Source: a virus. Taken from it: a stretch of DNA of 41,736 nucleotides. The position numbers and the translations under genes are program-made. A model generated the notes under the pieces. The model had not been told where the DNA came from, made no database searches, and worked only from the letters and a program-made list of their open reading frames with translations. The stretch is from positions 1 to 41,736 of the IMG/VR virus record IMGVR_UViG_3300043420_001028. One strand, written 5' to 3'. Shown here piece after piece: positions 6,371 through 34,303 of this stretch; positions within the stretch are counted from its first letter, which is position 1; every line of letters begins with the position of its first letter.

Positions 6371-6376
6371 AGTATA
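6371..6376 (-). promoter_or_regulatory. extended -10 promoter TGCTATACT
   Basis: TATACT is preceded by TGC on the minus strand, 27 bases before the ATG at 6344. No -35 is visible. It belongs to the recurrent promoter family of this genome. Confidence 0.6.
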
Positions 6377-6383
6377 GCAGAGA

Positions 6384-6647
6384 TCAGAACCAGCGGTCAA
6401 GCAACTCGCGAAACCAGGAGCCTTTCTTCACGGCGGCCTTTTCTTGCTGGGCGTCGAAGAACACCTCAAGCTCGGCGTTGTTAAGGTCATCATAGAGCAG
6501 CTCGCAGTACTCCTTCTTCAGGAACTCAAGCTCGGGCAGAACGCCAGCACGGTCGGCAACATCATTCAGGTCGAAACGGCCGTTGGAGCGGATCCACTCG
6601 GCCATGTAATGGGCAGCTTGGTGCAGTCTTGGGGTGTACTCAGGCAT
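6384..6647 (-). CDS. hypothetical protein (87 aa)
   Basis: A soluble, helical protein (MPEYTPRLHQAAHYMAEWI, then ELEFLKKEYCELLYDDL). Its start overlaps the end of the 44-aa gene upstream. Function unknown. Confidence 0.7.
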   Translation of the reverse strand: MPEYTPRLHQAAHYMAEWIRSNGRFDLNDVADRAGVLPELEFLKKEYCELLYDDLNNAELEVFFDAQQEKAAVKKGSWFRELLDRWF

Positions 6648-6774
6648 TGGTTTGCTCCTTTTGTTGTTTGATTAGGGCACAGGTCTCGAGGTAGCCTGGT
6701 GGAACAAGGGCGGGTCTTCTCTTGAATATAGCCGCCCAGTCAGGGGCCGGGGTGACTTGTTTGTTTTTCTTCAT
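6640..6774 (-). CDS. small basic protein (44 aa)
   Basis: The frame begins MKKNKQVTPAPDWAAIFKRR. The ATG overlaps the stop of the 115-aa gene by ATGA, which favours this start over an upstream extension. Function unknown. Confidence 0.6.
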   Translation of the reverse strand: MKKNKQVTPAPDWAAIFKRRPALVPPGYLETCALIKQQKEQTNA

Positions 6775-7118
6775 GAAAACTCGGGATAGGGGTGGCCAGT
6801 GGGGACCTTGGCATACCAGGATTTCTTGAGATCTCCCTCCAGGCGGTCGTGGTACACCACAAGCACCTGCTCCCATTCGTTGCCCCAGGCATCTTTGGCC
6901 TTCACTGAGAAGGCTGGACAGCGTGAGGCGGCCAGGTCGGGAACGAAGCGCTTGCCGACCCTGTTCCAGCTTGGCTCCTTACCTTTCCAAGAGAGCCTGC
7001 AACTGGGCCAGGATAACTGCTCTCTGTCGTACAAGACGCAGCAGGGGCCCTGCACCTCATAGAAAAAACTGCCACCAGGGGAGCGGAGCTTTTTACCATT
7101 GGGCAGGAGTGTTCTCAT
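6771..7118 (-). CDS. hypothetical protein (115 aa)
   Basis: A Trp- and Tyr-rich, probably beta-type protein (GGSFFYEVQGPCCVLYD, SWYAKVPTGHPYPEF). It is coupled by ATGA overlaps on both sides. No family is recognised. Confidence 0.7.
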   Translation of the reverse strand: MRTLLPNGKKLRSPGGSFFYEVQGPCCVLYDREQLSWPSCRLSWKGKEPSWNRVGKRFVPDLAASRCPAFSVKAKDAWGNEWEQVLVVYHDRLEGDLKKSWYAKVPTGHPYPEFS

Positions 7119-7246
7119 TTCTTAAAGAAAGGGTAGAGGCAGTAGGTCAGAACGGCAAAGCCAACGATAGCGGTGGTGCCGAAGACGTAGGCCCCGAACA
7201 GCGCAATGGCGCGTAGGAGCATGGTGTAATATTCGAACTGGGTCAT
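7115..7246 (-). CDS. tiny membrane protein (43 aa)
   Basis: MTQFEYYTMLLRAIALFGAY runs into one long hydrophobic stretch (about 9-37) with a Lys-Lys end. It is coupled to the 115-aa gene by an ATGA overlap. Function unknown. Confidence 0.6.
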   Translation of the reverse strand: MTQFEYYTMLLRAIALFGAYVFGTTAIVGFAVLTYCLYPFFKK

Positions 7247-7248
7247 GG

Positions 7249-7452
7249 TCACTCGGCAGGCTGGGTGGACAGGGACACAACGCGGCCGTTGACCAAGGCA
7301 GTCACGTCAACGATAGCCTCGTTGAACTCTTCGCAATCGGCAATCAGATCCTCGACAGTGTCGTAACGCTGCTCGACGAACAGGCTGCCAACGTCGCTGA
7401 ACTCAGCAGCGCGGTCTTCTTGGAACTGGAAGCGGGCGACCACATTAGACAT
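7249..7452 (-). CDS. hypothetical acidic protein (67 aa)
   Basis: AGAGAGG precedes the ATG at 7452. The protein begins MSNVVARFQFQEDRAAEF and ends in beta strands. A TATACT element (7479-7484) gives it a probable promoter of its own. Confidence 0.7.
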   Translation of the reverse strand: MSNVVARFQFQEDRAAEFSDVGSLFVEQRYDTVEDLIADCEEFNEAIVDVTALVNGRVVSLSTQPAE

Positions 7453-7478
7453 GGGCTTTCCTCTCTTGGTACCCACCC

Positions 7479-7484
7479 AGTATA
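7479..7484 (-). promoter_or_regulatory. extended -10-type promoter TATACTGG
   Basis: Minus-strand context GGTGTATACTGGGTGGG, 27 bases before the ATG at 7452. Same family as 13149, 28000 and 30090. Confidence 0.6.
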
Positions 7485-7539
7485 CACCAGAAAACCTCAC
7501 AGGTGTCAACCCATAGGGCTAGCGGATCTGGTTGTTGCA

Positions 7540-9147: not shown

Positions 9148-9243
9148 TGCTTTCTCAGCGAATGGCGGCCGTCGCGGCCTGAATAGGGGTGATTCCGAAG
9201 GGCCTCTCGCGTCTTCGTCGTCTTAATAGGTTGCCGTAGCAAG

Positions 9244-9264: not shown

Positions 9265-9268
9265 CAGA

Positions 9269-9766: not shown

Positions 9767-9767
9767 A

Positions 9768-9929
9768 TTAGCTCTCCTGTTGTTTGCGTAGTTTGAGGTA
9801 CTTGGTCCAGGCTGTTGAGACCTGATCGCAATCGGCCTCATTGAATGTCCTGTAGCGCTTCTCTATCTTCATCATGTAGATAGAGAACGCGGCCCTGAAG
9901 TCCTCCAGGGCCCGTTCCAGATCGGTCAT
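9768..9929 (-). CDS. small charged protein between RNR and dCTP deaminase (53 aa)
   Basis: The frame MTDLERALEDFRAAFSIYMM is helical. It is coupled to the RNR stop by an ATGA overlap and ends two bases before the dcd TTG. Function unknown; position suggests co-expression with nucleotide metabolism. Confidence 0.7.
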   Translation of the reverse strand: MTDLERALEDFRAAFSIYMMKIEKRYRTFNEADCDQVSTAWTKYLKLRKQQES

Positions 9930-12900
9930 GCCTTGCCTTCCTGCTCCTCTTTCTCTGCCTTAGCGATACAGGCAGCGTTGGCGCAGCCAGCCACCGACTC
10001 GATGGTCCACTCACTGCTGTCGAACTTCTTCAAGATGTCCAGCAGGGTGCGGTCGTCAGTCTCTGCCACGACCTGACGGGGCAGGATCTGGATGTCGTAC
10101 TCCTCCTTAGAGATGGGTTCAAACGGGAGTCTTGGAAAAGTGCCCCCGGAGACATCAAAACGAGCGAGCAGGGCTGCAGAGATGTAGCCGCCGTCGTTCT
10201 GGATGTCGTCGTAGATCAGCTTAGCGAGAACAGGGATCTCCTCTTCGCGCAGTTCGATGGTGGCTGAGCAGTTGTGGTCCACATAGTTGCGCTGCACATT
10301 CATGTACAGGCCATACTGTGCCTCCACGGGCAGCTGGTTCAAGTCGAACTCGTCGCAGCCAGGCAGATCTGCCCAGGATACGGCGGTCGGGATCTCCACC
10401 AGCACCTCATGCACACGGGGATCGGTGATGTCGTCCAGCAGGTTACCCTCATCGTCGCGGGCGCTCTGTGCAGGGATGACGTTGTAGCCATACTCAATCA
10501 GAGCGGGCACCAGGGGGTCCTTGGCGCCCAGGGTGATGCGGCGGATGAAACGCTGGGCCTTGGGCGGATGCCAGCCGCTGGAGGCGCCTGTGAGCAGGCT
10601 CTTGGTGCCAGCAGGTTGAACCGTGGTGATGCGGTTGGGGTGGCGGATGCCGTACTTGTTGCAGTAATCACGGACGCCACGATGAGCAGCCAGGCGGAAG
10701 TTGGCCAGGTACTCAGCCTCTGCGGCCTCGAAGATGCGGCCAGCGCGGTAGCCTTTGCGGCCACCCATCATCCACTTGAGCCACTCGTAGCCGAAGGCGT
10801 GGACAAAGAAGTCGAAGAGACCAGTGAAGCTGACGCCCACGATAGGATCGATCTCACGGCTGTACTGGTACCGCTCGTGTACGAACTCGTGCTGCAGGAG
10901 TGCTGCTACCTGGAGGCCAGCGGCGTAGAAGGCATCTTCCTGTGCCCCGTAGTCTTTCGGGTCGATGGTGTTCAGGTGCACCTCGGCCAGATTGCAGTGG
11001 AAGTCGCGGCCAATGATCTCCCCACAAGGATTGAGGCCGTAGCGATCCATACGGTGGCCAATCTCGCGGGCATCCAGCGAGTTGTCCAGCTTGGCCAGGT
11101 ACTTGGCCGCCTTGTCGCGTCCCTTGCTGGTGTAGATGTCCAGGAACCTAGCCTTCTTGGCTTGGGTATTCAGCAGGTCGACGTTGGCACGGGCCACCGC
11201 CTCGGGGACGTACTGGATAGCACCTTCGCCAGACTGGAACTGCAGGCGCACTGCATCCTCAACCTCCTGGTAGGAGGGCTTGGTGTGGTAGCAGCGGGTG
11301 TGATTAGCCATCCGCAGGGCCTCCTTCTTGGGGTCCACACGCCAGTTACCTTCCTCGTCCTGGCTGTACAGGCCCAGCTTGGCAGTGGCAGCTTCCTGGT
11401 CGTCCTGAGAGAACTGGCGCATGCCAGCAGAGCGGCGGATGTTGCCAGCGACGATACAAGCAGCGGCTTCGTCGATCAGCAGGCAAGCCTCGACGGTAGT
11501 CAGCTTGCGGCCCACGGCACCGTTCAACAGGTCAACGACCTTGCGGAACATGGTCTCGAGCTTGATCGGGTTGGCAGTGCCACCAAAACCCTTGAGGCGC
11601 TCGCCAGCAGGGCGCACCTGGCTCAGATCGATGGTCAGCTCGATCTCCTCTGCGCCGTTGTAGGCGGCCTGGTTGATCAGGGCCTGATAGGCATCCACCC
11701 ATCCCTTGCGGCTGTCGCCAACAGAGATCATGACATGCCCCTTCTCGGAGATCACATGAGTGACCGCGCAACCAGGGGCGTCTCCGACGGGGTTGAGGCG
11801 AACGATCTTGATCGCAGACTTGATCGGGGGCAACTGGTCCACCACGTCTTGCTCGAGCACTGCGCCAGTACCAGAGCCCTGCATGGCCAGGTCCACCAGA
11901 AGACCAAAGGCATTCAGGTCGGAGATGTGGGTCGAAGTGCAGTTGCCTGTCAGCAAACCGTGGGCAAGCACGAAGCTACGGGTTTCGGGCTCTTCGGCAC
12001 AGTAGACAGTTTCAGGAGCCTCTTCTACCCCGATGGACTTGACGGTCCACCAGCGCTTTTCAGCACCCTTGCGGAAGCTCTTGCGATGCGAGGAGCGGAG
12101 AAGGTCCTCCGCATCAACCGAATCCTTGTCCAGTACGATCGCCCACAAGTCCTGCTTGCGCTTGCCAAGGTTGGTTTTCTCGCCAGTACGGGCAGCAACA
12201 CGAGACGAGACAAATGTGAAGCCCGCTACGGCTGCGTAACTAGCCGCAAAAGAGGCGAGTTCTGCACTGCCGTAAATGACAACTGACTGTCCAACAGAGC
12301 CGTCGGTAGCAATCAATCCCTGAAAGAATCCGCGCAGATAATCAGGGTCATAGGCAGGAGGGAGCTCCTTGAGGTTTTTCTCTGAATCAACGTAGGCGCG
12401 GACGTGCTGATAATGGCGTATGTCATCAAAGTGCCGATACAGCTCTACTTTTTCCCCGACAAGGTCGACAAAGAACTTGCCGTACTGAGTGGTGCCGTCA
12501 CCATAGACGATGCCATGGCGAATGCCTTCCACACTGGCTTTGGGCTTAGGAGAGTAGACCTTGGCGATCTTGTCTCCACGGCGCAGTTCGGCTGTCGTCA
12601 CCTCACCACGACGAGTGATCCAGCGATGGTTTGGAGTGCTGCGAATCACCTGGGCAGCGCCACCCTTCTGACCGAAGGTTACGGGGATCAGGGTCTGCTC
12701 TCCGTAGCCCTTGAACTCAACATCAACCCAATGACCATTGCCATTAAGTACGGTGGTCGTACCGCTAGCAAGATCCTCGATCCTCTCCAGTCCGTAAGCG
12801 GTCTGGACAAGGGTGTCGCGATGGAGGCAGTTGTAGTAACCGCTGAAATTCTCGGGGCGCTTGCCCCATTCGGTGCCAGCCACCCAGAAGGCGCGGCCAG

Positions 12901-13102
12901 ACGGGAACGAATGCTGAGCGAGGGCCTGCTCCCTGACGAGAGCGTACTCCTCTTGGTCGAACTTGCCGATCTCAGCGATGTCGTTCACCGTCCTGAGCAT
13001 GGCTTCCTCGAAGTTCTCGCGGGTGCCGTCTTCCTTCCGACGGCTGTAGGTGCGGAGGAAGACCGTCTCTGCGCTAGGGGCTTGGGGACGGAAGTCGGAC
13101 AT
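9926..13102 (-). CDS. nrdJ: class II ribonucleotide reductase with intein
   Basis: Adenosylcobalamin-dependent RNRs reduce ribonucleotides to deoxyribonucleotides. The precursor has 1058 aa; removing the 296-aa intein leaves 762, close to monomeric class II enzymes. Seen in the sequence: NPCGEI (Cys 693), FHCNLAEV (Cys 703), PAGTKSLLTGASSGWHPP near the end of the barrel, and a C-terminal CANAAC pair (about 1040/1045), matching the thiyl-radical, active-site and swinging-arm cysteines of the Lactobacillus enzyme. The intein sits directly before CTSTHIS, the other active-site Cys. I start at ATG 13102, 47 bases after a TATACT promoter; the frame is open further upstream. The host must provide cobalamin. 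Confidence 0.95.
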   Translation of the reverse strand: MSDFRPQAPSAETVFLRTYSRRKEDGTRENFEEAMLRTVNDIAEIGKFDQEEYALVREQALAQHSFPSGRAFWVAGTEWGKRPENFSGYYNCLHRDTLVQTAYGLERIEDLASGTTTVLNGNGHWVDVEFKGYGEQTLIPVTFGQKGGAAQVIRSTPNHRWITRRGEVTTAELRRGDKIAKVYSPKPKASVEGIRHGIVYGDGTTQYGKFFVDLVGEKVELYRHFDDIRHYQHVRAYVDSEKNLKELPPAYDPDYLRGFFQGLIATDGSVGQSVVIYGSAELASFAASYAAVAGFTFVSSRVAARTGEKTNLGKRKQDLWAIVLDKDSVDAEDLLRSSHRKSFRKGAEKRWWTVKSIGVEEAPETVYCAEEPETRSFVLAHGLLTGNCTSTHISDLNAFGLLVDLAMQGSGTGAVLEQDVVDQLPPIKSAIKIVRLNPVGDAPGCAVTHVISEKGHVMISVGDSRKGWVDAYQALINQAAYNGAEEIELTIDLSQVRPAGERLKGFGGTANPIKLETMFRKVVDLLNGAVGRKLTTVEACLLIDEAAACIVAGNIRRSAGMRQFSQDDQEAATAKLGLYSQDEEGNWRVDPKKEALRMANHTRCYHTKPSYQEVEDAVRLQFQSGEGAIQYVPEAVARANVDLLNTQAKKARFLDIYTSKGRDKAAKYLAKLDNSLDAREIGHRMDRYGLNPCGEIIGRDFHCNLAEVHLNTIDPKDYGAQEDAFYAAGLQVAALLQHEFVHERYQYSREIDPIVGVSFTGLFDFFVHAFGYEWLKWMMGGRKGYRAGRIFEAAEAEYLANFRLAAHRGVRDYCNKYGIRHPNRITTVQPAGTKSLLTGASSGWHPPKAQRFIRRITLGAKDPLVPALIEYGYNVIPAQSARDDEGNLLDDITDPRVHEVLVEIPTAVSWADLPGCDEFDLNQLPVEAQYGLYMNVQRNYVDHNCSATIELREEEIPVLAKLIYDDIQNDGGYISAALLARFDVSGGTFPRLPFEPISKEEYDIQILPRQVVAETDDRTLLDILKKFDSSEWTIESVAGCANAACIAKAEKEEQEGKA
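11942..12829 (-). mobile_element. LAGLIDADG intein in the RNR gene
   Basis: An in-frame 296-aa insertion between SGYYN and CTSTHIS. It begins with Cys (CLHRDTLVQT), has the block B TPNH motif (about 65-68) and ends ...HGLLTGN before the +1 Cys. The usual penultimate His is Gly here. Two LAGLIDADG-type motifs, HGIVYGDGT (Asp 111) and FFQGLIATDGS (Asp 176), keep their acidic residues, so the homing endonuclease looks intact. Splicing would restore the catalytic-pair Cys as the first residue of the C-extein. An inteinless allele would be the homing target. Confidence 0.92.
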
Positions 13103-13148
13103 ATCTGGTGTTTGGTGACGCAGGAGTAGAATACCTGTCGTCCTAACC

Positions 13149-13154
13149 AGTATA
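13149..13154 (-). promoter_or_regulatory. extended -10-type promoter TATACTGG before nrdJ
   Basis: Minus-strand context GCTGTATACTGGTTAGG, four bases after the T-run of the preceding terminator. The region where a -35 would lie is the terminator stem itself, so it must act without one. Confidence 0.65.
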
Positions 13155-13157
13155 CAG

Positions 13158-19659: not shown

Positions 19660-20394
19660 TCAAAAAAGGGAACCCTGGACCCTCCCCTCGCCTAGGTCTT
19701 CCCATCCCTCCATCAGATCGATTTCCATCTCGCTCCAGTCGGTAGTGGCGCAGCCCGCCAGCTGAAGCAGCGTGTCGACGGCCTCCCTAGGGATCCTGGA
19801 GCCAGTCCCAGACAAGTAGATCTCCATCTGATCCAGGAGGCGTTGCTGGGCCTCAGGAAGCCCTTTCATTGCCTCGTCTGCGGCCTTGGTGTAGATGGCG
19901 GCGAAGTCGATCTCGGAGGGCTCCAGGGGCTCTGTAGGGGTAGCCTGGTCCTTAAGCTCGAGCGGCGGGCCAGAGCATACCTTGCGCACCTCTTGCCACT
20001 CCTGCAGGGAAATACCGAGGAATGCTGCTACCTCGATGTCGGTACCGCCGCGATACAAAAGTTTACGCCCCTTGACCCAGTACTCACGCATCTTATGAGA
20101 CAGGCGCATGGAATACGTTCTGTCGCGCACCCAGTGCAATAGCTCGCCACGGATGGTGGGGATAGCCAGCGAGGAGAACTTCATGCTCTTCCCCGTCACG
20201 GGGTGGGGCTTGCTGGCGTCGTATCGATAAGCTGCCTTACAAAGCCCCTCGAAGGCCACGGACTCCAGGGTCTGGTACTCGATACCAGTCGACCTCTGGA
20301 TACGCCACGCTTCCCGCCTGGCCAAGTTCAGGTTATCAGCAGCCATCTTCTGCTGCTCGCGGTCAAGCTTGAACTTTGCGGGTTTTCTTGCCAC
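19660..20394 (-). CDS. sigma-70 family factor, SigB/SigF-like, region 4 weak
   Basis: Directs RNA polymerase to promoters. Region 2 is clear: NLNLARREAWRIQ, LESVAFEGLCKAAYRYD and MKFSSLAIPTIRGELLHWVR (2.4 to 3.0). Region 3 follows (DIEVAAFLGISLQEWQEV). A canonical region 4.2 helix-turn-helix is not evident in the acidic C-terminus. The start is GTG at 20394 without a good ribosome binding site, 25 bases after a TAGACTGG promoter; an ATG at 20346 is the alternative. Likely reprograms host transcription. Confidence 0.85.
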   Translation of the reverse strand: MARKPAKFKLDREQQKMAADNLNLARREAWRIQRSTGIEYQTLESVAFEGLCKAAYRYDASKPHPVTGKSMKFSSLAIPTIRGELLHWVRDRTYSMRLSHKMREYWVKGRKLLYRGGTDIEVAAFLGISLQEWQEVRKVCSGPPLELKDQATPTEPLEPSEIDFAAIYTKAADEAMKGLPEAQQRLLDQMEIYLSGTGSRIPREAVDTLLQLAGCATTDWSEMEIDLMEGWEDLGEGRVQGSLF

Positions 20395-20482: not shown

Positions 20483-20763
20483 AGGGGGTGTTGTTGTTGT
20501 GTGTTCTCAAACCGCAAGGTATGATTCGCCGCAAGGCTTTACACACGAGGTGAAGGCCCCATTTAACACGTGAGACGCCTCAAGGACGCACAGAGGTGGG
20601 GGCGAGGGTGGTGGTAGGAGGGACCTCTATGCGCGGACGGGGTCACCTTTCCTTCATCTAGCCACAGAATACTAGGACTAGAGAGAGGGTTGCGCTTCCT
20701 ACACGAAAGCCCGTTGCTACGTCCAGATATTTCCAGACCACGCAGAGCGGGAACACCTATAGT
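20483..20763. other. 280-base non-coding region downstream of the terminase
   Basis: No supported frame, tRNA or terminator is seen. It begins (minus strand) with a TAGACT element at the terminase stop and ends near a second one. It contains a direct CCTTGCGG repeat (minus strand, about 20510-20542). It could be a leader, a small RNA or part of a packaging site; none is shown. Confidence 0.45.
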
Positions 20764-20766
20764 CTA
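20761..20766 (-). promoter_or_regulatory. extended -10-like element TGGTAGACT
   Basis: It contains the terminase TAG stop. Context on the minus strand GTGTGGTAGACTATAGG. It could start a transcript through the 280-base non-coding region. Confidence 0.4.
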
Positions 20767-22287
20767 CCACACCTGGTAGTGGTGTGCCTGGGGTAGCACT
20801 CTATCGCCACGGCCCCAGGCAACCGAGGTCATTTGTGGTGCAGACCTTTGAGCCATATAGTTTACAGCCATCGTCAGTGCATCAACCATGTCATCGTTCT
20901 TCGATGCAGGAAATAACGAGAATTCATTGATGAAATTGTCGAGCCAATGGGCACTCGCGGGCAGGTATACGTTGCCCGCCTCCACTATAGGCACGATGCC
21001 GCTGGCCCTTGCTTCCTTGGACTTCTCTGGCTTGAAGCCGATCAGCCCAGGCACTCGTTTGCTCATCATCTGGTAAACGGCGTAGCCTGATGCCGCAAGC
21101 TCGATTACCGTACCAGATAGGGCATGCCGTTGATACATGCGGTTGATCATGGCCATCGTGCCAACGACGTCCAGCTTCTCTCTGGCGAGATCCAGCACGT
21201 AGAATTGGTTGCCAGCCTGTCCTACAACAGCGCCAACCACGTAGTCAGACTTGTTTGTGGCGGTGAAGGTGGCGTCAACGGCCAGCATGATGCGTTGGAA
21301 GTCGGGAATGACACTGTCATGCGAGTAGTACTGCCACCAGTCAGGGTTGAACATGTTGCCCCCTTCTGGAGCGGGGCGCTGCTGATACAGGGAGGCGAAG
21401 TCACGGGAGCCGACAGCCTCGCGGATGCGCTCCAGGTCGTCGCTGTCGTAGCGCTGGGGGCACAGGGCCTGGCCAATCTCGGTACGCCAATCAGGGATAA
21501 CCTCGCAGTGCTCGGGGAGAATGGGACGATCACCCTCGTCCTCGTACAGAGCAGGTAGGTCCACGATGGTCCAGTTCTCGCGACCCCTCTCGGAGACGTT
21601 CATCTCATTCTCCAGAAGCTGCCCGATCATGTCGTTCTCGGACCACCGAGTCTGAATCACCACAATGGCGCCCACCTGGGGCTCAAGACGGGTGTACAGG
21701 GTAGATGTATACCAGTCGTTGAGCTTCTCCATCATGCGGGCGCTCTCGGCATCCTCGCGGTTCTTGACAGGGTCGTCGATGATCAGAAGGTGGCCACTGC
21801 GACCAGTGATTGCGCCGCCGACGCCAGCTGCCCAGAGCCCGCCGCCTCCTTCGGTAGCCCAGGCGTTGACTGCCTGACTGCTGGGGTTGAGGAGGCCACC
21901 TGCTTCGCGGTAGTAATCGCGGGCTTTGCGGGAGAATCCTTCGGCGAGTTCGGCCGAGTAGGAACTAATCCCCACAAACCGATCAGGGTGAGCGAGTAGA
22001 TAAGCAGCAGGGAGAAGTTGACTTGCAAGCAGTGACTTTCCGTGTCGAGGCGGGACCTGAAGTATGAGTCGATTGCACTCTCCGTCGAGGACGCGCTGAA
22101 GCTGCTCGATGACTGTCGCATGAAATTTGTAGAATTTGTAGTTAGGAAACACCTTGCGGATAAACTTCCACAAGATGACCCGCTCGCCATTGGCTTGGCG
22201 CTCGGCCTTCTTGGCCTTGACGGCCTTTACGAGATCCTGTCCAGAAGCGGCCTTCTGCAGGTAGTCCTTGCCTAGTTTGCTGCTCAT
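20764..22287 (-). CDS. terL: terminase large subunit
   Basis: ATP-driven DNA packaging motor and nuclease. Walker A PPRHGKS (79-85), Walker B LLIIDDP (167-173), an RWSEND coupling region (214-219), and the RNase H-like nuclease with AVDATF (Asp 338) and NDDMVDAL (464-471) are all visible. The 507-aa length is normal. The ATG overlaps the small subunit stop by four bases. The order TerS-TerL is standard. Confidence 0.97.
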   Translation of the reverse strand: MSSKLGKDYLQKAASGQDLVKAVKAKKAERQANGERVILWKFIRKVFPNYKFYKFHATVIEQLQRVLDGECNRLILQVPPRHGKSLLASQLLPAAYLLAHPDRFVGISSYSAELAEGFSRKARDYYREAGGLLNPSSQAVNAWATEGGGGLWAAGVGGAITGRSGHLLIIDDPVKNREDAESARMMEKLNDWYTSTLYTRLEPQVGAIVVIQTRWSENDMIGQLLENEMNVSERGRENWTIVDLPALYEDEGDRPILPEHCEVIPDWRTEIGQALCPQRYDSDDLERIREAVGSRDFASLYQQRPAPEGGNMFNPDWWQYYSHDSVIPDFQRIMLAVDATFTATNKSDYVVGAVVGQAGNQFYVLDLAREKLDVVGTMAMINRMYQRHALSGTVIELAASGYAVYQMMSKRVPGLIGFKPEKSKEARASGIVPIVEAGNVYLPASAHWLDNFINEFSLFPASKNDDMVDALTMAVNYMAQRSAPQMTSVAWGRGDRVLPQAHHYQVW

Positions 22288-22925: not shown

Positions 22926-23312
22926 CTAGTATGCCGAAAGGTAGTCGTCCCAAGGCTTTGGGTCCTTTTTGTACATCTCAATTCGACCAAGATGGGCATT
23001 GCATCCACGGCACAGTAGTCCGCGAACTTTTCCCGTTTCGTGGCAGTGGTCGACGCTGAGCCTCTGCCCAGAAGGGCACTCTTTCTTGCAGATCTTGCAT
23101 ACCCCGCCTTGGTCTAGGACCATTTGCTCGAACTGATCCAGGGGCAAGCCGTAGAAATGCTTCAGGCGATCCCTAAGCATCGTCCTGCTGGATCTGGATT
23201 TATTGTTGCAATCTTTGCAGGAGCTATAAAGTCCGTCGCTGGCACGCTTATCTGGAGAAAAAGCCCCGAAGGGCTTGATCTCCTCACAGCGCTTGCACTG
23301 TTTGGTCTCCAT
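22926..23312 (-). CDS. endonuclease VII-like (HNH/Zn) nuclease (128 aa)
   Basis: N-terminal zinc knuckles (CKRCEEIK, SSCKDCNN) precede an endonuclease VII-like core: HFYGLPLDQFEQMVLDQGG, VCKICKK, LSVDHCHETGKVRGLLCRGC. The DHCHETG motif holds the catalytic His. Such free-standing nucleases behave as homing genes; T4 Endo VII instead resolves junctions. Start ATG 23312 follows AAGGAAG and shares a base with the upstream stop. It sits just upstream of TerS. Confidence 0.88.
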   Translation of the reverse strand: METKQCKRCEEIKPFGAFSPDKRASDGLYSSCKDCNNKSRSSRTMLRDRLKHFYGLPLDQFEQMVLDQGGVCKICKKECPSGQRLSVDHCHETGKVRGLLCRGCNAHLGRIEMYKKDPKPWDDYLSAY

Positions 23313-24276: not shown

Positions 24277-24470
24277 CAGTACTCCGTGCGAACTTTGGGG
24301 TTGTAGGGGTGGCGGCGCTTGTCACGCACGCATTGGTCGATGGAGTCTAGCACCTCGGAGAGGTTTCGTCCACCTCCGCAGTAGGGGCCGCGTGCATTGC
24401 GGTCCCCCTCTACCACCCAATCGTACCAGCCATCGATGTCCTCGATGGTGATCTTGAAGTTAGCGCTCAA
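24276..24470 (-). CDS. hypothetical protein (64 aa)
   Basis: A TTG start overlapping the exonuclease stop (TTGA) with GAGGAGG about ten bases upstream is the best start. The product MSANFKITIEDIDGWYDWVV is acidic with a basic end. Function unknown. Confidence 0.6.
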   Translation of the reverse strand: MSANFKITIEDIDGWYDWVVEGDRNARGPYCGGGRNLSEVLDSIDQCVRDKRRHPYNPKVRTEY

Positions 24471-25312
24471 AACAGACCAGCCTCCTCTTCTTGGACTCTT
24501 GGCTGGCCATACGGTGTATACCAGCTCGGGTAGCTCAACCTGCGTATGGTAGCAGGGCGGTTGGGCCATTCGCCCATCTCGTTACAATCCTTAAACAAGC
24601 GCAGGGCGGCAACGCACTTGGCCGTACCTTCGGCCATCATCTCCTCGTCGACCTGGAACAGGTCCACGGTATATGGGGCCTTGCGCTCCACGGCGGCAAA
24701 GATGAAGTCGAACTTCTTGCCAAAGGCAACCTCGGCGGCCTTGGCGTAATAGGCAGCCTGGAAGTCGTAGCCCAAGCCGACGACCTTCTTGGTGAAAAGC
24801 TCAGGCTCAACACTGTCGGTAGTCTTCAGGTCAAGTACTAGCCCGTTTTCGACGTCGATGCGATCCAGACGAGCCTTGCAGCGCACGCCTTCCCAGTCCC
24901 AGTAGATTGAGACCTCGTTGTACTTGATGTAGTCGGGCTGAGATGGGTCGAAGTAGGCCAGCTCGCGCAGGCTGTAGCCCATACCTTGCACGCTACCCCA
25001 GGGGTCGTCCTTACCGCCTTCGGCGAGGGGCTTCTTATTGCCCAGATCGGCCTTCCATTTCCTGCCCTCTTTAGTAGCCAGCGAGAGGCCGTCGGGCTTC
25101 TTGACGTACTGGGCATCGAAAGCCTTCTGGCCGTCGAGGGTAAGGCAGTGCAATGCTGTTCCTATCTCCATTGCTGGAGTAGGAATCATCTTGAACTTGA
25201 GGGTCGCCTGGTAGTGGGCGGGGCTCTCGAGGATCTTCTTCAGGGAGGACTGGTTGGCGCCCTCCTCTCTTCGGTAGTCAAATTCGGACTCATTGTACCT
25301 TGTCTCCGCCAC
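24467..25312 (-). CDS. RecE/exonuclease VIII-like PD-(D/E)XK exonuclease
   Basis: Resects double-stranded ends to give 3' tails for single-strand annealing. The order of motifs fits PDDEXK_1-type phage exonucleases: QSSLKKILESPAHY, MEIGTALHCLTLDG, CKARLDRIDVENGLVLDLKT (the D...DLK active site) and YDFQAAYYAKA. The GTG start has GAGG upstream. The partner annealing protein lies at 29385-30065. Confidence 0.9.
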   Translation of the reverse strand: MAETRYNESEFDYRREEGANQSSLKKILESPAHYQATLKFKMIPTPAMEIGTALHCLTLDGQKAFDAQYVKKPDGLSLATKEGRKWKADLGNKKPLAEGGKDDPWGSVQGMGYSLRELAYFDPSQPDYIKYNEVSIYWDWEGVRCKARLDRIDVENGLVLDLKTTDSVEPELFTKKVVGLGYDFQAAYYAKAAEVAFGKKFDFIFAAVERKAPYTVDLFQVDEEMMAEGTAKCVAALRLFKDCNEMGEWPNRPATIRRLSYPSWYTPYGQPRVQEEEAGLF

Positions 25313-25338: not shown

Positions 25339-25344
25339 AGTCTA
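25339..25344 (-). promoter_or_regulatory. extended -10-like element TGCTAGACTG
   Basis: It contains the TAG stop of the 51-aa gene, 27 bases before the exonuclease GTG. Confidence 0.4.
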
Positions 25345-25497
25345 GCAGGCAAAGTCGTGTTCCAGTCGGTGAGCCACGGAGGCGAGGTGGGCGTCCCTCA
25401 GGCGCGGCCCGATCGCCTTGTATCGCGGATTCACCTTGAACTCAGCGGGATGATCCGAATAAGCCATTGAGACTCGCTTTTTGATGCCTTTTCCCAT
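25342..25497 (-). CDS. small basic protein (51 aa)
   Basis: The ATG at 25497 has AGAGG upstream; an ATG at 25467 is the alternative. The protein MGKGIKKRVSMAYSDHPAEF overlaps the end of RusA by 67 bases. Function unknown. Confidence 0.55.
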   Translation of the reverse strand: MGKGIKKRVSMAYSDHPAEFKVNPRYKAIGPRLRDAHLASVAHRLEHDFAC

Positions 25498-27524: not shown

Positions 27525-27974
27525 CTAAAACGGAACAGGCAGTTTACGGCGATCCTCGGCGGCCAGATCAGCCAACAGGTGGTGTGGCATCATGGCGTCA
27601 AGAGCGGTGACCACGTTGATCACCTTGGGGACGTTCTGCCGGTTCTCTCCGAGGGTAAGAACCCAGAGGTCTTCCTCCTCGTTGTAACGCAGGATGCGGC
27701 TGCCTACCATCTCGCCGAGCACCTCGTCAAGCAGAAGCTCAACACGGGTTCGATCGGTGTAATCGCCCTCTAGGGCGCTCCAGGCGCCGACTTTTAGATC
27801 TTCGACAGAACATACCGCAGAGATGGCCGCAACCACCTCGTGGGGCCGTACAGCGCCCCTGTAGAGCAGAATCGGCCAGACGAAGGCGCGAACGTGGGCG
27901 TGCGTCAGCAGTGGCGTATCGTCAAAGAGTAGCCCCGTGGTTCCAGGGACCAGTTCGGCTTCATCAATGTTCAT
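27525..27974 (-). CDS. hypothetical acidic protein (149 aa)
   Basis: AAAAGGAGG precedes the ATG, and an extended -10 lies upstream (28000-28005). The protein appears helical with winged-helix-like parts (RPHEVVAAISAVCSVEDLKV, RVELLLDEVLGEMVGSRIL, DLWVLTLGENR). It might bind DNA, but no family is recognised. Confidence 0.7.
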   Translation of the reverse strand: MNIDEAELVPGTTGLLFDDTPLLTHAHVRAFVWPILLYRGAVRPHEVVAAISAVCSVEDLKVGAWSALEGDYTDRTRVELLLDEVLGEMVGSRILRYNEEEDLWVLTLGENRQNVPKVINVVTALDAMMPHHLLADLAAEDRRKLPVPF

Positions 27975-27999: not shown

Positions 28000-28005
28000 A
28001 GTATA
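28000..28005 (-). promoter_or_regulatory. extended -10 promoter TGCTATACTGG
   Basis: Five bases after the terminator T-run of ssb, 26 bases before the ATG at 27974. No room for a separate -35. Confidence 0.7.
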
Positions 28006-28010
28006 GCATG

Positions 28011-28046: not shown

Positions 28047-28397
28047 TCAGAAAGCGTCCCCACCACCACCGCCTTCACGGCGAGCTTCTAAGTACGTTAA
28101 ACGAGCGTTCTTCACGTCCAGGTAGGTCTTATTCTGGTATTCACGCTGCACGAGCTGGCCAGTAACGCCAACCTTGTCGCCACGCTGGAGACGGTCAGCA
28201 GCGATCTGGGCTGCCTTACCCCGCACTTCGACGCGGTAGAACTGGCCCTTTTGCTCTTCCCCAGGCTTAGTGTACACGTATTCGCGGTCTGCTACGGAGA
28301 AGGTAGCTACGCTATCGCCTGAGTCGAACTGCTTGACAGTCACAGGGGTTTCGCCCTGCTTGCCAGTCACGGTTCCAGCGATTGAGATTGAGGCCAT
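28047..28397 (-). CDS. ssb: single-stranded DNA-binding protein
   Basis: OB-fold protein that coats single-stranded DNA in replication and recombination. Visible features: ATFSVADREYVYTKPGEE, FYRVEVRGKAAQIAADRLQ, RGDKVGVTGQLVQREYQNK and a Gly-rich linker ending in an acidic-aromatic tip (DAF). The 116-aa length is short but intact. AAGGAA precedes the ATG. A hairpin lies in its leader and a terminator follows. Confidence 0.95.
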   Translation of the reverse strand: MASISIAGTVTGKQGETPVTVKQFDSGDSVATFSVADREYVYTKPGEEQKGQFYRVEVRGKAAQIAADRLQRGDKVGVTGQLVQREYQNKTYLDVKNARLTYLEARREGGGGGDAF

Positions 28398-28463: not shown

Positions 28464-28469
28464 AGTCTA
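28464..28469 (-). promoter_or_regulatory. extended -10-like element TGATAGACTGG before ssb
   Basis: Directly after the TGA stop of the sigma gene, 67 bases before the ssb ATG. Confidence 0.5.
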
Positions 28470-29267
28470 TCAGCCCACGGCGGCGCCGCAGTGCTCCTGG
28501 ATCTTGGCAATGGCATCACGCACCTTGGCACGGGTCTCCTTGCTGTTGCACTTGTGCTTCATCAGAACGGTATCCATGTTGCCGCGCTTGATGTAGGCCA
28601 GTACCAGGTCCTGAACGCGAGGCTCGATACCTAGGCTGGACATGATGCCAACGGTATCAACAACGCGACTGATGGGCTCCTGCTCGGTGGGGTCGATCAG
28701 GCGGTTCTCGTCCGACAGTATCTCGAGGAAGCTGGTGTCATTGAGAACCTGAGCATCGTATGAGGTGGCCGCGTAGGCCATCTTGGCGGACTCAGCAGCC
28801 TGAGCTACCCACTTAGCGACTTTCTCGTTGCGGGGTTTGCCGTGGTTGTTGTAGTAGAAGATCTCACGCGCAGAGGACTCGGGCACGCGGACCACGCTCA
28901 GGTTCTCGACGTGATAACGGCCAAGGGCTTGACGCACCCAGGCGCTAGCATAAGTGGCGAAGGTGTAGCCGCGCTCGGGGTCGAACTTCTCGGCTGCACG
29001 ACGAAGGCCGAAGTAGCCTTGCTGCAGGTAGTCTTGGGCAGCGTCGTCGCCCATGCCGATCTGGCGGTTGCTGCTATTCATGTAGGAACGAGCGAACTTG
29101 GCCACTAGGCGCAGGTTGTGCACGCAGAGCTTGTTAACGAGTTTGATGCGGGCCGGGGAGCCAGTCTCAGCTTCCTGGATCTTGCGTGCGAGTCGCAGGG
29201 TCTCAGCTTCTGGCAGAACGGGGTAGCGACCAGCAGCGTTCAGCCAGGCAGACAGGTTGCTTTTCAT
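28470..29267 (-). CDS. sigma-70 family factor, RpoD-like with degenerate region 4
   Basis: GGAGG precedes the ATG. Region 1.2 (YPVLPEAETLRLARKIQ), region 2 (CVHNLRLVAKFARSY, DDAAQDYLQQGYFGLRRAAE, FDPERGYTFATYASAWVRQA) and region 3 (NLSVVRVPESSAREI) are clear. The C-terminal part, LAYIKRGNMDTVLM and NSKETRAKVRDAI, is only a vague trace of region 4. In standard factors region 4 reads the -35. The gene has its own extended -10 promoter and ends just before ssb. Confidence 0.92.
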   Translation of the reverse strand: MKSNLSAWLNAAGRYPVLPEAETLRLARKIQEAETGSPARIKLVNKLCVHNLRLVAKFARSYMNSSNRQIGMGDDAAQDYLQQGYFGLRRAAEKFDPERGYTFATYASAWVRQALGRYHVENLSVVRVPESSAREIFYYNNHGKPRNEKVAKWVAQAAESAKMAYAATSYDAQVLNDTSFLEILSDENRLIDPTEQEPISRVVDTVGIMSSLGIEPRVQDLVLAYIKRGNMDTVLMKHKCNSKETRAKVRDAIAKIQEHCGAAVG

Positions 29268-29299: not shown

Positions 29300-29305
29300 A
29301 GTATA
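29300..29305 (-). promoter_or_regulatory. extended -10 promoter TGGTATACTTGG
   Basis: Follows the terminator at 29310-29332 and precedes the sigma-factor ATG at 29267 by 32 bases. Confidence 0.65.
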
Positions 29306-29309
29306 CCAT

Positions 29310-29332
29310 AAAAAAGGGGGCTGTTAACCCCC
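29310..29332 (-). terminator. Rho-independent terminator after the annealing protein unit
   Basis: GGGGG, 7-base loop, CCCCC, then six T on the minus strand. The TAA of the possible 25-aa ORF lies in its loop. Confidence 0.88.
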
Positions 29333-29401
29333 TATGACAATTCCATTGAAGAAAGCGGCCAGTCGCTCGGCGATCAGGTCGAGATCACCATTGTTCCCCA
29401 C
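29324..29401 (-). CDS. possible tiny ORF (25 aa)
   Basis: A GTG start overlapping the end of the annealing protein gives a short hydrophobic peptide (LIAERLAAFFNGIVIGG). There is no strong ribosome binding site. Confidence 0.3.
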   Translation of the reverse strand: MGNNGDLDLIAERLAAFFNGIVIGG

Positions 29402-30065
29402 TGGCTTCGGCGGGGGCGAACTTGGCGTTGAGCTGCTCGACGTCGGCTGCGGACTTCTTGGCAACGGTTGCGATGCCCTTGGCGAAGTCGCCCTTGATGA
29501 TCCCGAGGAGACCATCGATGGCATGAGTGGTGAAGCCCTTCTCGAGGGCTGCCTCACGAAAGGCGGCCTCTGTGGCCTCAGAAGTGCCACCAGTAGTCGC
29601 CTGTGCAGCCCTGTTGGCTACAGGAGCAGGCTTTGGGGCCTCTGCAGTGTCATCAGAGTTGAAGCCAGACTCGAGCGGCATCTTCGCCCACAGCTCGTAT
29701 GCCAGGCCGAAGGTCATGGCGGCTGCCATGCACATGCCGCGACGCTGTGTGTCTGTGATGTCGCGGGCGGTAATCCGATCAAACGCAATGGCGTTGTTCT
29801 TGTGATCCATCACTGCCTGGGGCAGGGCGGGGGTCACGACGCCGTCGACGTTACGGAAGCGGATCATCAGGTAGGCGCCAACAGGAGCCCTATGGAGCAG
29901 GCCGCCATCAGCGGCGGGCTCGTAGTCCACCATCCAGCCAGGAGCGTTCTCCCGGAGCAGCTGCATGGTACGGGACCAGTTGATGTAGCTGGCCTTGAAG
30001 GAGCCAGAGCCGATGGTTTCTACCAGGTCCTTGGTAGCAACGCCAGCGAGATTGGGGAGAGTCAT
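29385..30065 (-). CDS. Sak3/DUF1071-like single-strand annealing protein
   Basis: Anneals complementary single strands in phage recombination. The DUF1071-like core is visible: INWSRTMQLLRENAPGWMVD, VGAYLMIRFRNVDGV, PQAVMDHKNNAI, DITDTQRRGMCMAAAMTFGL. After an Ala/Pro-rich linker comes a helical C-terminal domain. GAGGA precedes the ATG, and an extended -10 lies upstream. Likely partner of the RecE-like exonuclease. Confidence 0.8.
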   Translation of the reverse strand: MTLPNLAGVATKDLVETIGSGSFKASYINWSRTMQLLRENAPGWMVDYEPAADGGLLHRAPVGAYLMIRFRNVDGVVTPALPQAVMDHKNNAIAFDRITARDITDTQRRGMCMAAAMTFGLAYELWAKMPLESGFNSDDTAEAPKPAPVANRAAQATTGGTSEATEAAFREAALEKGFTTHAIDGLLGIIKGDFAKGIATVAKKSAADVEQLNAKFAPAEASGEQW

Positions 30066-30089: not shown

Positions 30090-30095
30090 AGTATA
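30090..30095 (-). promoter_or_regulatory. extended -10 promoter TGCTATACTGG
   Basis: Almost identical to 28000-28005, 25 bases before the ATG at 30065. Confidence 0.65.
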
Positions 30096-30100
30096 GCAGG

Positions 30101-30663: not shown

Positions 30664-30710
30664 GTCAAAAATGATTGTTTTGATAAGAGGTTTTGAATAT
30701 ACATAGAGGG

Positions 30711-30775
30711 ACTGCTACGTCACGGTGCAGTCGACTGCTACGCCACGGTGCAGTACTGCTACGTGACGGGTCAGT
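30711..30775. repeat. three tandem 21-23-bp iteron-like repeats
   Basis: ACTGCTACGTCACGGTGCAG (30711-30730), ACTGCTACGCCACGGTGCAG (30734-30753) and a divergent third copy ACTGCTACGTGACGGGTCAG (30755-30774). Repeat starts are 23 and 21 bases apart, about two helical turns. Each unit begins ACTGC and the first two end GCAGT. Confidence 0.85.
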
Positions 30776-30780
30776 GCATG

Positions 30781-30786
30781 GTAGAC
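30781..30786 (+). promoter_or_regulatory. extended -10 promoter TGGTAGACTGG, plus strand
   Basis: It follows the repeats directly, 25 bases before the ATG at 30811. It is the only copy of the family found on the plus strand. Confidence 0.5.
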
Positions 30787-30810
30787 TGGTGGCACCCCGA
30801 CCTGACAGCC

Positions 30811-31875: not shown

Positions 31876-31876
31876 T

Positions 31877-33574
31877 ATGACCTTTCCCCACTACATCCAG
31901 AAAGCCGTCGACCTCGGTTTGCTCACTGTGGACGGCGGCAAGATCACTGGCTGCGACAAAAGCGCTGTCGAGACTGTGCTCGGCACGGCTCGCCTAATCG
32001 AGAAGCTGCAGCCCACTACCACGGCCCAGCAGGACGATACCACCGACCAGGAGGCCATCGTCCTATGCCGCGTGCTGTCCTCCCCAAGCGGCAAGGCTCG
32101 CCAGCTCTGGGCTGACCTGCGCGTGGGGTTCGGCATCGGCCATGGCCAGGCGGTTCCTGACAGCATGTGGTCGACTCCCGTATTCCGCGCCATCGGTAAC
32201 GAAGTCGATCGCACCTTCATGGGCGAGCGCAATGCTTCCCTGATCAGCCGCGAGTCCCTAATCGCCCAGTACGGCGACCTGAATCCTGCCAGTCGCATTG
32301 TCGGCATGGCCGAGTTCAACAAGACCATCACCGAGCTGGCCCAGCCTGAGACCATGGCCACCTACGGCGACGCTCAGTCCGAGTGGGACACCGCCATCGA
32401 CCTCCTGCGCCAGCGTCGCGTGCGTGCGTTGTACAAGGAGACCCTACACTACGCCGAGCAGGTCGGCCGCTCCGACAGCAAGCTCGAGAAGAACATCGAG
32501 TTCCTGCAGCAGCGGTCCATGGAGTGCCTGGGCATGCTCCGTGGCTCCATTGGGAATCAGGGCAACGCTGTCGACATCGTCGAGGACCTTTTTGGCAACG
32601 ATGGCCAGCCTGGCTTCCTGGATCAGATTATGAATGCCCGCGAGCAGGAGGAGCCTGTTTCCACCGGGATCATGGCCCTGGACATCGACATGGAGGGCGG
32701 GATCTACCGCCCCTGTAGCGTAAACCAAGGTGGCCGCCTCTTCACCCTGGCTGCCCGTACTGGTGTCGGCAAGACCCAGATCGGCGTACAGGTTGCAGCA
32801 CAGGCAGTCGTCGCTGGCCTGGTTGTCGGCTTTGTCTCTGCCGAGCTTGACCGTGGCAGTATCTACGCACGCCTCTGGTCGTCGATCACCAAGAAGACCA
32901 ACTCCCGTGGCGTGTTCTCTGGCAAGATCGCCGCCCCCAGCAACCACGACAAGGAGGACATTGCCTCCGCCCTGGCCCAGGCAGGTGGCGCTATCCAGAA
33001 CTGTGGCGGCAAGCTGATGGTTGAAGCCCCCTGGGGCGCAGACGTTGACACCGTTGTCAATAGCATGCGCACCATGAAGGCCAAGAACCCCGAGCTGCGC
33101 CTGGTTGTCCTGGATCACTTCCACTGTCTGTCACGCCACAAGGGCGCCCCCTCGAACGAGGCAGCCATGATGGAGGATCGGGCCTACAAGCTGATGACCG
33201 CCGCTAAGGAACTGGACATCGACTTACTCGTCCTGGCTCAGATGAACCGGGTCGGCATGGATGCCATGAGCAAGAAGGCTGCGCCTGGGTTAGATCAGCT
33301 TCGCGGTACAGACGCCCTGTCCCACGTCAGCCATGCTGTCTGGATTGTTCGCAAGGAACCCACCGACGAGGAGTTCTTTGATCCGAGCAAGGCCCGTAAT
33401 CTTGAGCTATGGCACGCAAAGGTTCGTGGGCGCCAGGCTTATTGGAATGCTCAAGAGCAGCGTGTTAAGGGTATCCGTGGCTTCATCGACAAATCGGTGA
33501 TCACCATGGACCACGCCACCTCCTCGGTCGGCGAAGATAACACAATCGAAACCGTCCGTAAACTCGAACGATGA
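31877..33574 (+). CDS. DnaB-type replicative helicase
   Basis: Hexameric helicase that unwinds DNA at the fork and works with primase. Walker A ARTGVGKT (293-300), Walker B RLVVLDHFH (Asp 413) and LAQMNR (453-458) are clear, as are SAELDRGSIYARL and an RGTDALSHVSHAVWIV arginine region. The N-terminal 240 residues are helical, as in DnaB. The 565-aa length is longer than E. coli DnaB. It starts one base after the initiator-like gene. Confidence 0.93.
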   Translation: MTFPHYIQKAVDLGLLTVDGGKITGCDKSAVETVLGTARLIEKLQPTTTAQQDDTTDQEAIVLCRVLSSPSGKARQLWADLRVGFGIGHGQAVPDSMWSTPVFRAIGNEVDRTFMGERNASLISRESLIAQYGDLNPASRIVGMAEFNKTITELAQPETMATYGDAQSEWDTAIDLLRQRRVRALYKETLHYAEQVGRSDSKLEKNIEFLQQRSMECLGMLRGSIGNQGNAVDIVEDLFGNDGQPGFLDQIMNAREQEEPVSTGIMALDIDMEGGIYRPCSVNQGGRLFTLAARTGVGKTQIGVQVAAQAVVAGLVVGFVSAELDRGSIYARLWSSITKKTNSRGVFSGKIAAPSNHDKEDIASALAQAGGAIQNCGGKLMVEAPWGADVDTVVNSMRTMKAKNPELRLVVLDHFHCLSRHKGAPSNEAAMMEDRAYKLMTAAKELDIDLLVLAQMNRVGMDAMSKKAAPGLDQLRGTDALSHVSHAVWIVRKEPTDEEFFDPSKARNLELWHAKVRGRQAYWNAQEQRVKGIRGFIDKSVITMDHATSSVGEDNTIETVRKLER

Positions 33575-34014
33575 AGAAAACTCTCTTCCACATCATTTCT
33601 TGGAGCACCTACGCTCTTGTCGTTGCCTCAGACAAGGGCGCAGCCGCACTGACCTGGGTGATTGCCTGGAGTTCGGCCATCTCTCGCTGGTTGATCGCAA
33701 GCGGCGGCCAGATTTTGATGCAAAAGTTCACTCCAGAGCAGTGGGAGGAAGTGCGAGCCCAGATACAGCTCGAAAGCCAGCAGACTGAATTGGAGCTTCT
33801 ATCTTCTGTCAGCAAGCTGAAGGAGCACGCCATCGAGACCGGCAACTGGACAAATGACCATACAGATGCTCTCACTGCTGTCGGCAACGCATTACTGAAT
33901 GATTGTGATTGGGACGAGGAGCACGTCCACCAGTACCTCAAGGAAGTCGTAGAGTCTGTCCCTGGCCTAAAATACAGCACACCGGAAGATCCATTCGACG
34001 GGCCGCTAGACTAG
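33571..34014 (+). CDS. hypothetical protein (147 aa)
   Basis: Coupled to the helicase by an ATGA overlap. A moderately hydrophobic N-terminus (about 5-48) is followed by helical, acidic sequence (TPEQWEEVRAQIQLESQQTE). A start at the internal MQKFTPEQW is possible. Last gene of the plus-strand operon. Function unknown. Confidence 0.65.
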   Translation: MKKTLFHIISWSTYALVVASDKGAAALTWVIAWSSAISRWLIASGGQILMQKFTPEQWEEVRAQIQLESQQTELELLSSVSKLKEHAIETGNWTNDHTDALTAVGNALLNDCDWDEEHVHQYLKEVVESVPGLKYSTPEDPFDGPLD

Positions 34015-34043
34015 AGGGGAGCCCATCGGGTTCGGGGGGGGAC

Positions 34044-34067
34044 AAGGGGGCTGAAAGGCCCCTTTTT
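34044..34067. terminator. bidirectional Rho-independent terminator
   Basis: AAGGGG ... CCCCTT stem; T-run on the plus strand. It separates the plus-strand replication operon from the minus-strand gene at 34067. Confidence 0.8.
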
Positions 34068-34276
34068 CATGCCTTGCCGTCAGCGATAGCTCGCATGATA
34101 CCAGAGCGCTTGACGTAAAGACCAACGGTCGGGCCGTCAATGAAGAATGGACGGACGTAGTAGATCGTTTCGCCAGTCGTCGGGTCCATGTGCTGGGTAG
34201 GTGGTAGAGCGGCGCCAGTTGACTTTAACTGGTCATTCACCCACATGTAGCCTGGTAGGAACCCGAGGATTTGCAT
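34067..34276 (-). CDS. hypothetical protein (69 aa)
   Basis: MQILGFLPGYMWVNDQLKST is followed by a beta-rich part with Asp-Pro-Thr-Thr-Gly (DPTTGETIYYVRPFF). The promoter TATACT at 34298-34303 lies just upstream. No function is recognised. Confidence 0.6.
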   Translation of the reverse strand: MQILGFLPGYMWVNDQLKSTGAALPPTQHMDPTTGETIYYVRPFFIDGPTVGLYVKRSGIMRAIADGKA

Positions 34277-34297
34277 CGGCCTAATACGTCCGCACAG

Positions 34298-34303
34298 AGT
34301 ATA
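34298..34303 (-). promoter_or_regulatory. extended -10 promoter TGGTATACT
   Basis: Minus-strand context CTTGGTATACTCTG, 22 bases before the ATG at 34276. Confidence 0.6.

Follow-up and report, generated by a model that had tools for sequence, protein, structure and literature searches.

Promoter-like classes and a possible two-sigma cascade in an S-CBS2-like Synechococcus phage fragment

The DNA examined here is a 41.7 kb contig, IMG/VR record IMGVR_UViG_3300043420_001028 (41,736 nucleotides; "the window" below means this whole stretch), which carries two sigma factor genes and a recurrent motif, TGNTAKACT. Its TerL is 80-90% identical to that of the Synechococcus phages S-CBS2 (72 kb) and S-CRES1/2/3, and both sigma factors have orthologues in the S-CBS2 and S-CRES phages. 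We therefore regard the window as a fragment of an S-CBS2-like Synechococcus cyanosiphovirus. The same gene block is carried by approximately 60 IMG/VR contigs. As the window is the entire record, and hence the whole available "genome", complete relatives were used instead for whole-genome tests. A sequence-only reading of this DNA had proposed that TGNTAKACT is an extended -10 promoter without a -35, that it marks operon starts and that one of the phage sigma factors reads it. Recurrence of the motif proved real; a larger class, GGnAnnCTA before late genes, had been missed. Window genes came from a home-made caller and some starts are approximate (the terS start at 22907; the replication protein, probably 30811). 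Rfam and tRNA scans gave no match, and the literature that we searched held no promoter map for this widespread cyanosiphovirus group.

The two sigma factors

The sigma factor genes lie on the minus strand:
28470-29267, minus strand: sigma1, RpoD/group-2-like, 265 amino acids, with regions 1.2, 2 and 3 and a degenerate region 4
19660-20394, minus strand: sigma2, SigF/group-3-like, 244 amino acids, with regions 2 and 3 and a truncated region 4

Both proteins had been described as lacking a convincing region 4, which agrees with our results for sigma2 and not for sigma1. Region 2 of sigma1 was matched by Pfam Sigma70_r2 at 46.3 bits (cut-off 24). Pfam returned no region 4 match, and a profile of 33 sigma1 orthologues aligned to cyanobacterial SigA through region 4 (E 1.3e-51). 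The predicted model (mean predicted local distance difference test score, pLDDT, of 87) contained helices at 205-211, 216-228, 231-237 and 243-264, mostly at pLDDT 82-95. Their arrangement appears to be that of region 4, which suggests a region-4 fold with a degenerate recognition helix. As this helix is not conserved among orthologues, reading of the -35 may be altered or lost. According to a review, the S-CBS2 RpoD, the orthologue of sigma1, alters growth and metabolism when expressed in Synechococcus elongatus (PMC10452541), which suggests that the protein is functional in a cyanobacterium.

Regions 2 and 3 of sigma2 are highly conserved and are those of the SigB/SigF/SigG group. The best NCBIfam matches were NF005644 (SigF, 73.5 bits) and TIGR02980 (SigBFG, 40.9 bits), both below the curated cut-offs for full members. 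Matches lay mainly in regions 2 and 3; no region 4 was matched in Pfam or NCBIfam, and PDB profile matches mostly stopped near residue 145. By structure comparison (Foldseek/VIA), region 2 matched known sigma factors well; beyond residue ~145 the alignments were too weak to bear on region 4. The C-terminal part varies, and in marine orthologues the protein stops after 202-214 amino acids, short of a complete region 4; we therefore call the protein SigF-like rather than a SigF. The Prochlorococcus phage P-SS2 has a homologue of 42% identity in the same place, after terL. In the S-CBS2 record (NC_015463, 56832-57564) sigma2 is annotated with 206 amino acids and tblastn covers all 244 residues in two pieces, which may reflect either a broken reading frame or an error in the record.

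Extended -10 elements and the -35 question

Exact TGNTAKACT (class M) occurred 11 times in the window, compared to 1.14 +/- 1.13 in dinucleotide shuffles, at 6371-, 20419-, 20761-, 24344-, 25339-, 28000-, 28464-, 29300-, 30090-, 30779+ and 34298- (sign, strand). The longer TGNTAKACTGG occurred five times against 0.06 expected. When one mismatch was allowed, TGNTAKACT was not enriched in the window (39 versus 34.6), so that the signal is confined to the tight motif. Nine of the 11 exact sites lay at most 70 nucleotides (nt) 5' of a called same-strand start, as against ~0 in Markov-shuffled genomes. The placement before good starts thus largely held, except at 20761, which has no start in the expected range; the site at 24344 is inside a called gene and had rightly not been listed. 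The TG-N said to precede most elements is present at the 11 exact sites, whereas at 7479 and 13149 TG stands directly before TATACT, and the 25816 site is TGGTATTCT, not the element described earlier.

As the pattern had been picked after viewing the sequence, conservation served as the independent test. Tuning of the M pattern, and of the late pattern below, drew in part on the very genomes used for counting; independent checks came from P-SS2, four negative phages and the terS starts of IMG/VR contigs. The enrichment beyond the window expected of TGNTAKACTGG was sought in relatives with the shorter TGNTAKACT and was found in S-CBS2 (10 sites, 2.4 expected) and S-CRES3 (six, 2.0 expected). 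Sites common to the window, S-CBS2 and S-CRES3 stand at the starts of the replication protein, rad52/Sak, sigma1, ssb or the next gene, sigma2 and ribonucleotide reductase (RNR), and motifs of this type were also present at orthologous starts in dozens of IMG/VR relatives. Upstream of sigma2, approximately 40 relatives keep TG(G/A)TA.A(A/C)TG, mostly 27-33 nt before the start, while the flanks diverge. M was essentially absent (0-1 genes each) from P-SS2, KBS-S-2A, S-CBS1, S-CBS3 and S-CBS4, the sole site being in KBS-S-2A.

To assess the -35, the -10 was located at each orthologous start and TTGACA was scored at a spacing of 16-18, with at least 5/6 matches required. Such a box was present at sigma1 starts in 20 of 32 relatives (0.38 in shuffled upstream sequence) and at rad52 starts in four of 32; no TTGACA-like box was found at sigma2 starts (0/42 relatives) or ssb starts (0/31). 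Within the window, ten of the thirteen elements listed by the sequence-only reading had a best -35 match of no more than 4/6, in keeping with the description "without -35". The remaining three, at 6371, 7479 and 29300, have a -35 and had been lumped in; we therefore filed them as -35/-10 promoters (class E):
6371-6400, minus strand: TTGACC, 18 nt spacing, TATACT; before 5883-6344
7479-7509, minus strand: TTGACA, 19 nt spacing, TATACT; before 7249-7452
29300-29327, minus strand: predicted sigma1 promoter, -35 TTAACA (29327-29322) in a terminator loop, 16 nt spacer, -10 TATACT
29315-29333, minus strand: terminator hairpin AGGGGG-TTAACAG-CCCCCT, its loop being the -35 box; stems vary among relatives

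Terminators had been noted where a -35 would lie; the placement is correct, with the qualification that the terminator at 29300 itself carries the -35. In 19 of 33 relatives, the hairpin of the terminator ahead of the sigma1 start has a TTGACA-type box within its loop or spanning it. Across these relatives the stems differ yet still pair, and the TTGAC-type box is kept. In P-SS2, a de novo search returned a strong TTGACAnnnaCGcC before many small genes and sigma2, which may be an early-type promoter with a long -35 side, unlike that of the S-CBS2 group.

At positions -38 to -28, mean information over 19 non-redundant M sites was 0.122 bits, compared to a null of 0.11 +/- 0.09. M carries TGn one base upstream of the -10 hexamer, as in extended -10 promoters of the sigma70 type, and lacks a -35, as judged from the sigma2 and ssb starts and this null-level information. 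These comparisons support a -35-less extended -10 class marking operon starts, with true members before sigma2, ssb, rad52, the replication protein, the exonuclease and RNR. The elements in the window are:
30090-30098, minus strand: TGCTATACT(GG), 24 nt before a rad52/Sak-like annealing gene (29385-30065)
30779-30787, plus strand: TGGTAGACT(GG), before the replication-protein gene (probable start 30811); overlaps the called ATG at 30778
28464-28472, minus strand: TGATAGACT(GG), before ssb (28047-28397)
28000-28008, minus strand: TGCTATACT(GG), before 27525-27974; terminator stem and T-run at the would-be -35 position
25339-25347, minus strand: TGCTAGACT(G), before an exonuclease/PDDEXK gene (24467-25312)
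20419-20427, minus strand: TGGTAGACT(GG), 24 nt before sigma2; no -35 in any of ~40 relatives
20761-20769, minus strand: second copy of the sigma2-upstream element, formed by the last codon and stop of terL (TGG TAG ACT)
13147-13154, minus strand: M-type TATACTGG, lacking the N after TG; the first in a tandem pair of promoter-like elements before RNR; S-CBS2 has TGCTATACTGG
34298-34306, minus strand: M-like TGGTATACT, before a small open reading frame (34067-34276); assessed in the window only

The rad52 start carries the same element in S-CBS2 (TGCTATACTGG) and S-CRES3, the S-CBS2 replication-protein orthologue has TGATATACTGG 26 nt before its start, and the S-CRES3 orthologue of 27525-27974 has TGGTATACTGG.

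Between terL and sigma2 lies an insertion of ~340 nt (20428-20760) with no called gene and TGGTAGACT on either side. S-CBS2 has a shorter insertion in this gap, and one relative (L049) appears to have a tRNA-like 3' end there. The 20761 copy was rejected as a separate promoter, being the Trp-stop of terL without a start in range; it is probably a vestige left behind when the insertion separated it from 20419.

At 30710-30775, between the replication-protein operon and a forward early operon, three 22-nt near-palindromic direct repeats adjoin an AT-rich stretch. In S-CBS2, S-CRES3 and S-CRES1 the corresponding divergent intergenic region holds three to four repeats, each phage with its own sequence. 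The array looks like a replication origin or an operator array co-evolving with its binding protein.

A class of elements before late genes

A de novo motif search of 230 upstream regions from four genomes gave GATAGGCATACTAG as its top result. The pattern GGHANHCTA preceded 26 genes in S-CBS2, 27 in S-CRES3 and 25 in S-CRES1, compared to 0.8-1.5 in shuffled upstream regions. Most of the genes preceded by this class (L, GGnAnnCTA(G)) encode head, tail, fibre and lysis proteins, terS, portal and RNR; some are of unknown function. The distance to the start codon is tight, typically 18-24 nt. Across a set of 70 non-redundant sites the conserved bases were G-14, G-13, A-11, C-8, T-7 and A-6, with purine enriched near the expected transcription start. 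These sites showed no -35, as information at -38 to -28 averaged 0.046 against a null of 0.03 +/- 0.024. At the terS start the motif was present in 25 of 29 distinct relatives, with terS identity down to 49%. Elements of this class in the window are:
22927-22935, minus strand: GGCATACTA(G), 19 nt before terS (GTG at 22907)
13127-13135, minus strand: GGTATTCTA, 24 nt before RNR; second of the tandem elements
35516-35524, minus strand: GGCACCCTA(G), 19 nt before the endolysin gene
36986-36994, minus strand: GGCATCCTA, 22 nt before a fibritin/collagen-like fibre gene
36999-37007, plus strand: GGCAAACTA, 20 nt before the divergent gene 37028-37174
39596-39604, minus strand: GGTAACCTA, 21 nt before 39197-39574
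40370-40378, minus strand: GGCAGACTA, 27 nt before an ATG
9227-9235, minus strand: GGCAACCTA, 79 nt before portal

The portal gene of S-CRES1 and S-CRES3 has GGCAAACTA at 70 nt, and the RNR start carries M and L elements in tandem.

An independent de novo search in P-SS2 yielded GGAAnnCT(A) before portal, head-morphogenesis, scaffold, tail and lysozyme genes, and GGnAnnCTA preceded 14 of 126 genes there (0.7 expected). Among four cyanosiphoviruses without sigma2 (KBS-S-2A, S-CBS1, S-CBS3 and a partial S-CBS4), L was found at one of 214 genes, with 1.5 expected. L and sigma2 thus co-occur, which does not prove that sigma2 recognizes L but makes it a candidate reader; L is the -10-only class that seems best tied to a phage sigma factor.

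Genes preceded by L mostly have no Shine-Dalgarno sequence: such sites were present in 16% of them compared to 39-50% of other genes in four genomes. Their leaders would be only ~14-18 nt long.

The RNR gene (9926-13102, minus strand) is ~290 codons longer than in S-CBS2. The extra part has a Cys at its start and Gly-Asn at its end, before a Cys, and matches a Pfam intein splicing domain below the cut-off; it is probably an intein.

A possible cascade, its rivals and known systems

Three promoter-like classes served by a cascade of host sigmaA, sigma1 and sigma2 are, in our judgment, the best explanation of these results, and one that we consider rather probable. It builds on what was observed: the three motif classes, the genes that they precede and their conservation, which of them have a -35, which domains the sigma factors contain, and the co-occurrence of L with sigma2; from these we infer that the elements start transcription, their timing and which sigma factor reads which class. 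Host sigmaA polymerase would read class E (-35 TTGACA plus -10; sigma1 and some early genes), and sigma1 would be made. Sigma1, alone or with host sigmaA, would then fire M promoters, yielding replication, recombination and nucleotide proteins as well as sigma2. Finally sigma2, SigF-like and without a complete region 4, would read L promoters through regions 2 and 3 only and so express terS, portal, RNR and the virion and lysis genes.

Several observations weigh against this cascade. A at -11 is common to all three classes, as in most cases is CT at -8/-7, and in principle a single holoenzyme could therefore read several of them. The M core varies little while sigma1 spans 28-57% identity; tying M to sigma1 by covariation was attempted and dropped, as no link can be drawn from a near-constant motif. 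M was sought in P-SS2 and not found although a sigma1-like gene is present, which ties M only to the S-CBS2 group and not to the sigma1 family. Where sigma2 directly follows terL, the M element upstream of sigma2 is partly the terL Trp-stop, and the four control phages are few and phylogenetically unmatched. That a phage sigma factor reads M, as had been proposed, is possible. Established promoter rules allow host sigmaA to use extended -10 promoters with TGn in which a -35 is lacking. Sequence does not decide which polymerase reads this class, since the distribution of M among phage groups does not follow that of sigma1 and a good extended -10 can be used without a dedicated reader.

M may thus consist of ordinary extended -10 promoters of host sigmaA, in which TGn and a good -10 with a G-rich discriminator replace the -35, a reading to which we give substantial weight, somewhat short of even. 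TGnTATACT is one base from TGnTATAAT, and the sigma1 promoter has the same ATACT core in its -10 alongside a -35. Extended -10 elements bypass the -35, and middle and late promoters of Thermus phage P23-45 are extended -10 promoters used with host sigmaA (PMC7403470); a phage factor disabling sigma region 4, as gp39 does in P23-45, could favour M. Host sigmaA accounts less well for the near-absence of M from the five phages named above, which also rely on cyanobacterial sigmaA, and for the tiered placement (a -35 at sigma1, none at sigma2 and the replication genes), which suggests a change of reader. We think it unlikely that a single phage sigma, probably sigma2, reads M and L as variants of one degenerate -10 class (G..A..CT) that differ in strength and not in identity. 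The first expectation-maximization (EM) run did merge them under GG.A.aCT, and both have A at -11 and CT at -8/-7, but the two have different bases at -15, -12, -6 and -5 and stand before genes of different function, L is found without M in P-SS2, and RNR carries both in tandem.

More improbable still is that L acts in RNA, as a processing or translation signal, and is not a promoter. Its near-fixed 18-24 nt from the start codon and the scarcity of Shine-Dalgarno-like sites would fit such a role. Its A-11 and T-7, on the other hand, are the most fixed bases in every sigma70-family -10, purine is enriched near the predicted start, and L often follows terminators and co-occurs with sigma2. Least credible, and already disfavoured, is that the TGNTAKACT sites arise from chance, composition or the terL Trp-stop: in several relatives the element before sigma2 does share bases with the terL stop, and the excess disappears when one mismatch is allowed, but the exact motif is 10-fold to 80-fold in excess, is conserved at several unrelated starts and is kept beside sigma2 where an insertion separates terL (window and S-CBS2).

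In its most specific form, the cascade would be a two-sigma system of S-CBS2/P-SS2-type cyanosiphoviruses. Most virion genes would have a new late promoter of -10-only type, GGnAnnCTAG, at 18-24 nt from their starts, and its reader would be a SigF-like sigma factor that lacks a working region 4; the preceding sigma would be made from a promoter with its -35 in a terminator loop. We put this form at slightly better than an even chance. The specificity of the L motif suffices for predicting transcription units in dozens of contigs from uncultured viruses and for testing sigma specificity directly. A natural set of -35-less promoters together with a small sigma factor would also help to dissect the dispensability of region 4 in cyanobacterial transcription.

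Our searches of the literature on extended -10 phage promoters and sigma cascades found only general or other-host examples. In phage SPO1, the host sigma is followed by gp28 and then by gp33/gp34, each with its own promoter class. The proposed order of host sigma, first phage sigma and second phage sigma is the same, but the SPO1 promoters of the middle and late classes, unlike M and L, retain a -35-like element. Phage T4 late promoters (TATAAATA) are read by gp55, a phage sigma factor with specificity only in the -10 region. Sigma2 would resemble gp55 in its -10-only specificity for late genes; T4, however, needs gp33 and the gp45 clamp (roles of gp55, gp33 and gp45 in PMC5780444), whereas sigma2 is of the SigB/F/G type with an ordinary region 3.

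Late promoters of the Kayvirus vB_SauM-515A1 have a long extended -10, TGTTATATTA, without a -35, and are attributed to a phage sigma (PMC7698491). As in this SPO1-like phage of S. aureus, where early promoters are of normal sigma70 type, L stands mostly before virion or late genes and is absent from early ones. The equivalence with Kayvirus/SPO1-type late promoters is one of behaviour only: consensus, host and phage family differ, and Kayvirus has two classes with no middle class. Its transcription start sites come from RNA-seq; ours are predicted from sequence alone. P23-45 likewise has -35-less extended -10 middle and late promoters, read, unlike those proposed here, by host sigmaA with gp39 displacing sigma region 4 and no phage sigma (PMC7403470). 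The P23-45 and Kayvirus precedents, with the S-CBS2 RpoD result above and the P-SS2 proposal below, make each step of the cascade plausible.

P-SS2 offers a further parallel: it too has one group 2 and one group 3 sigma gene, placed as here before ssb and after terL, respectively. Its authors proposed in 2009 a separate regulon for the group 3 sigma, which they did not identify (PMC2784084). That study used BPROM for sigma70 sites only, and GGnAnnCTA is a candidate for the missing regulon.

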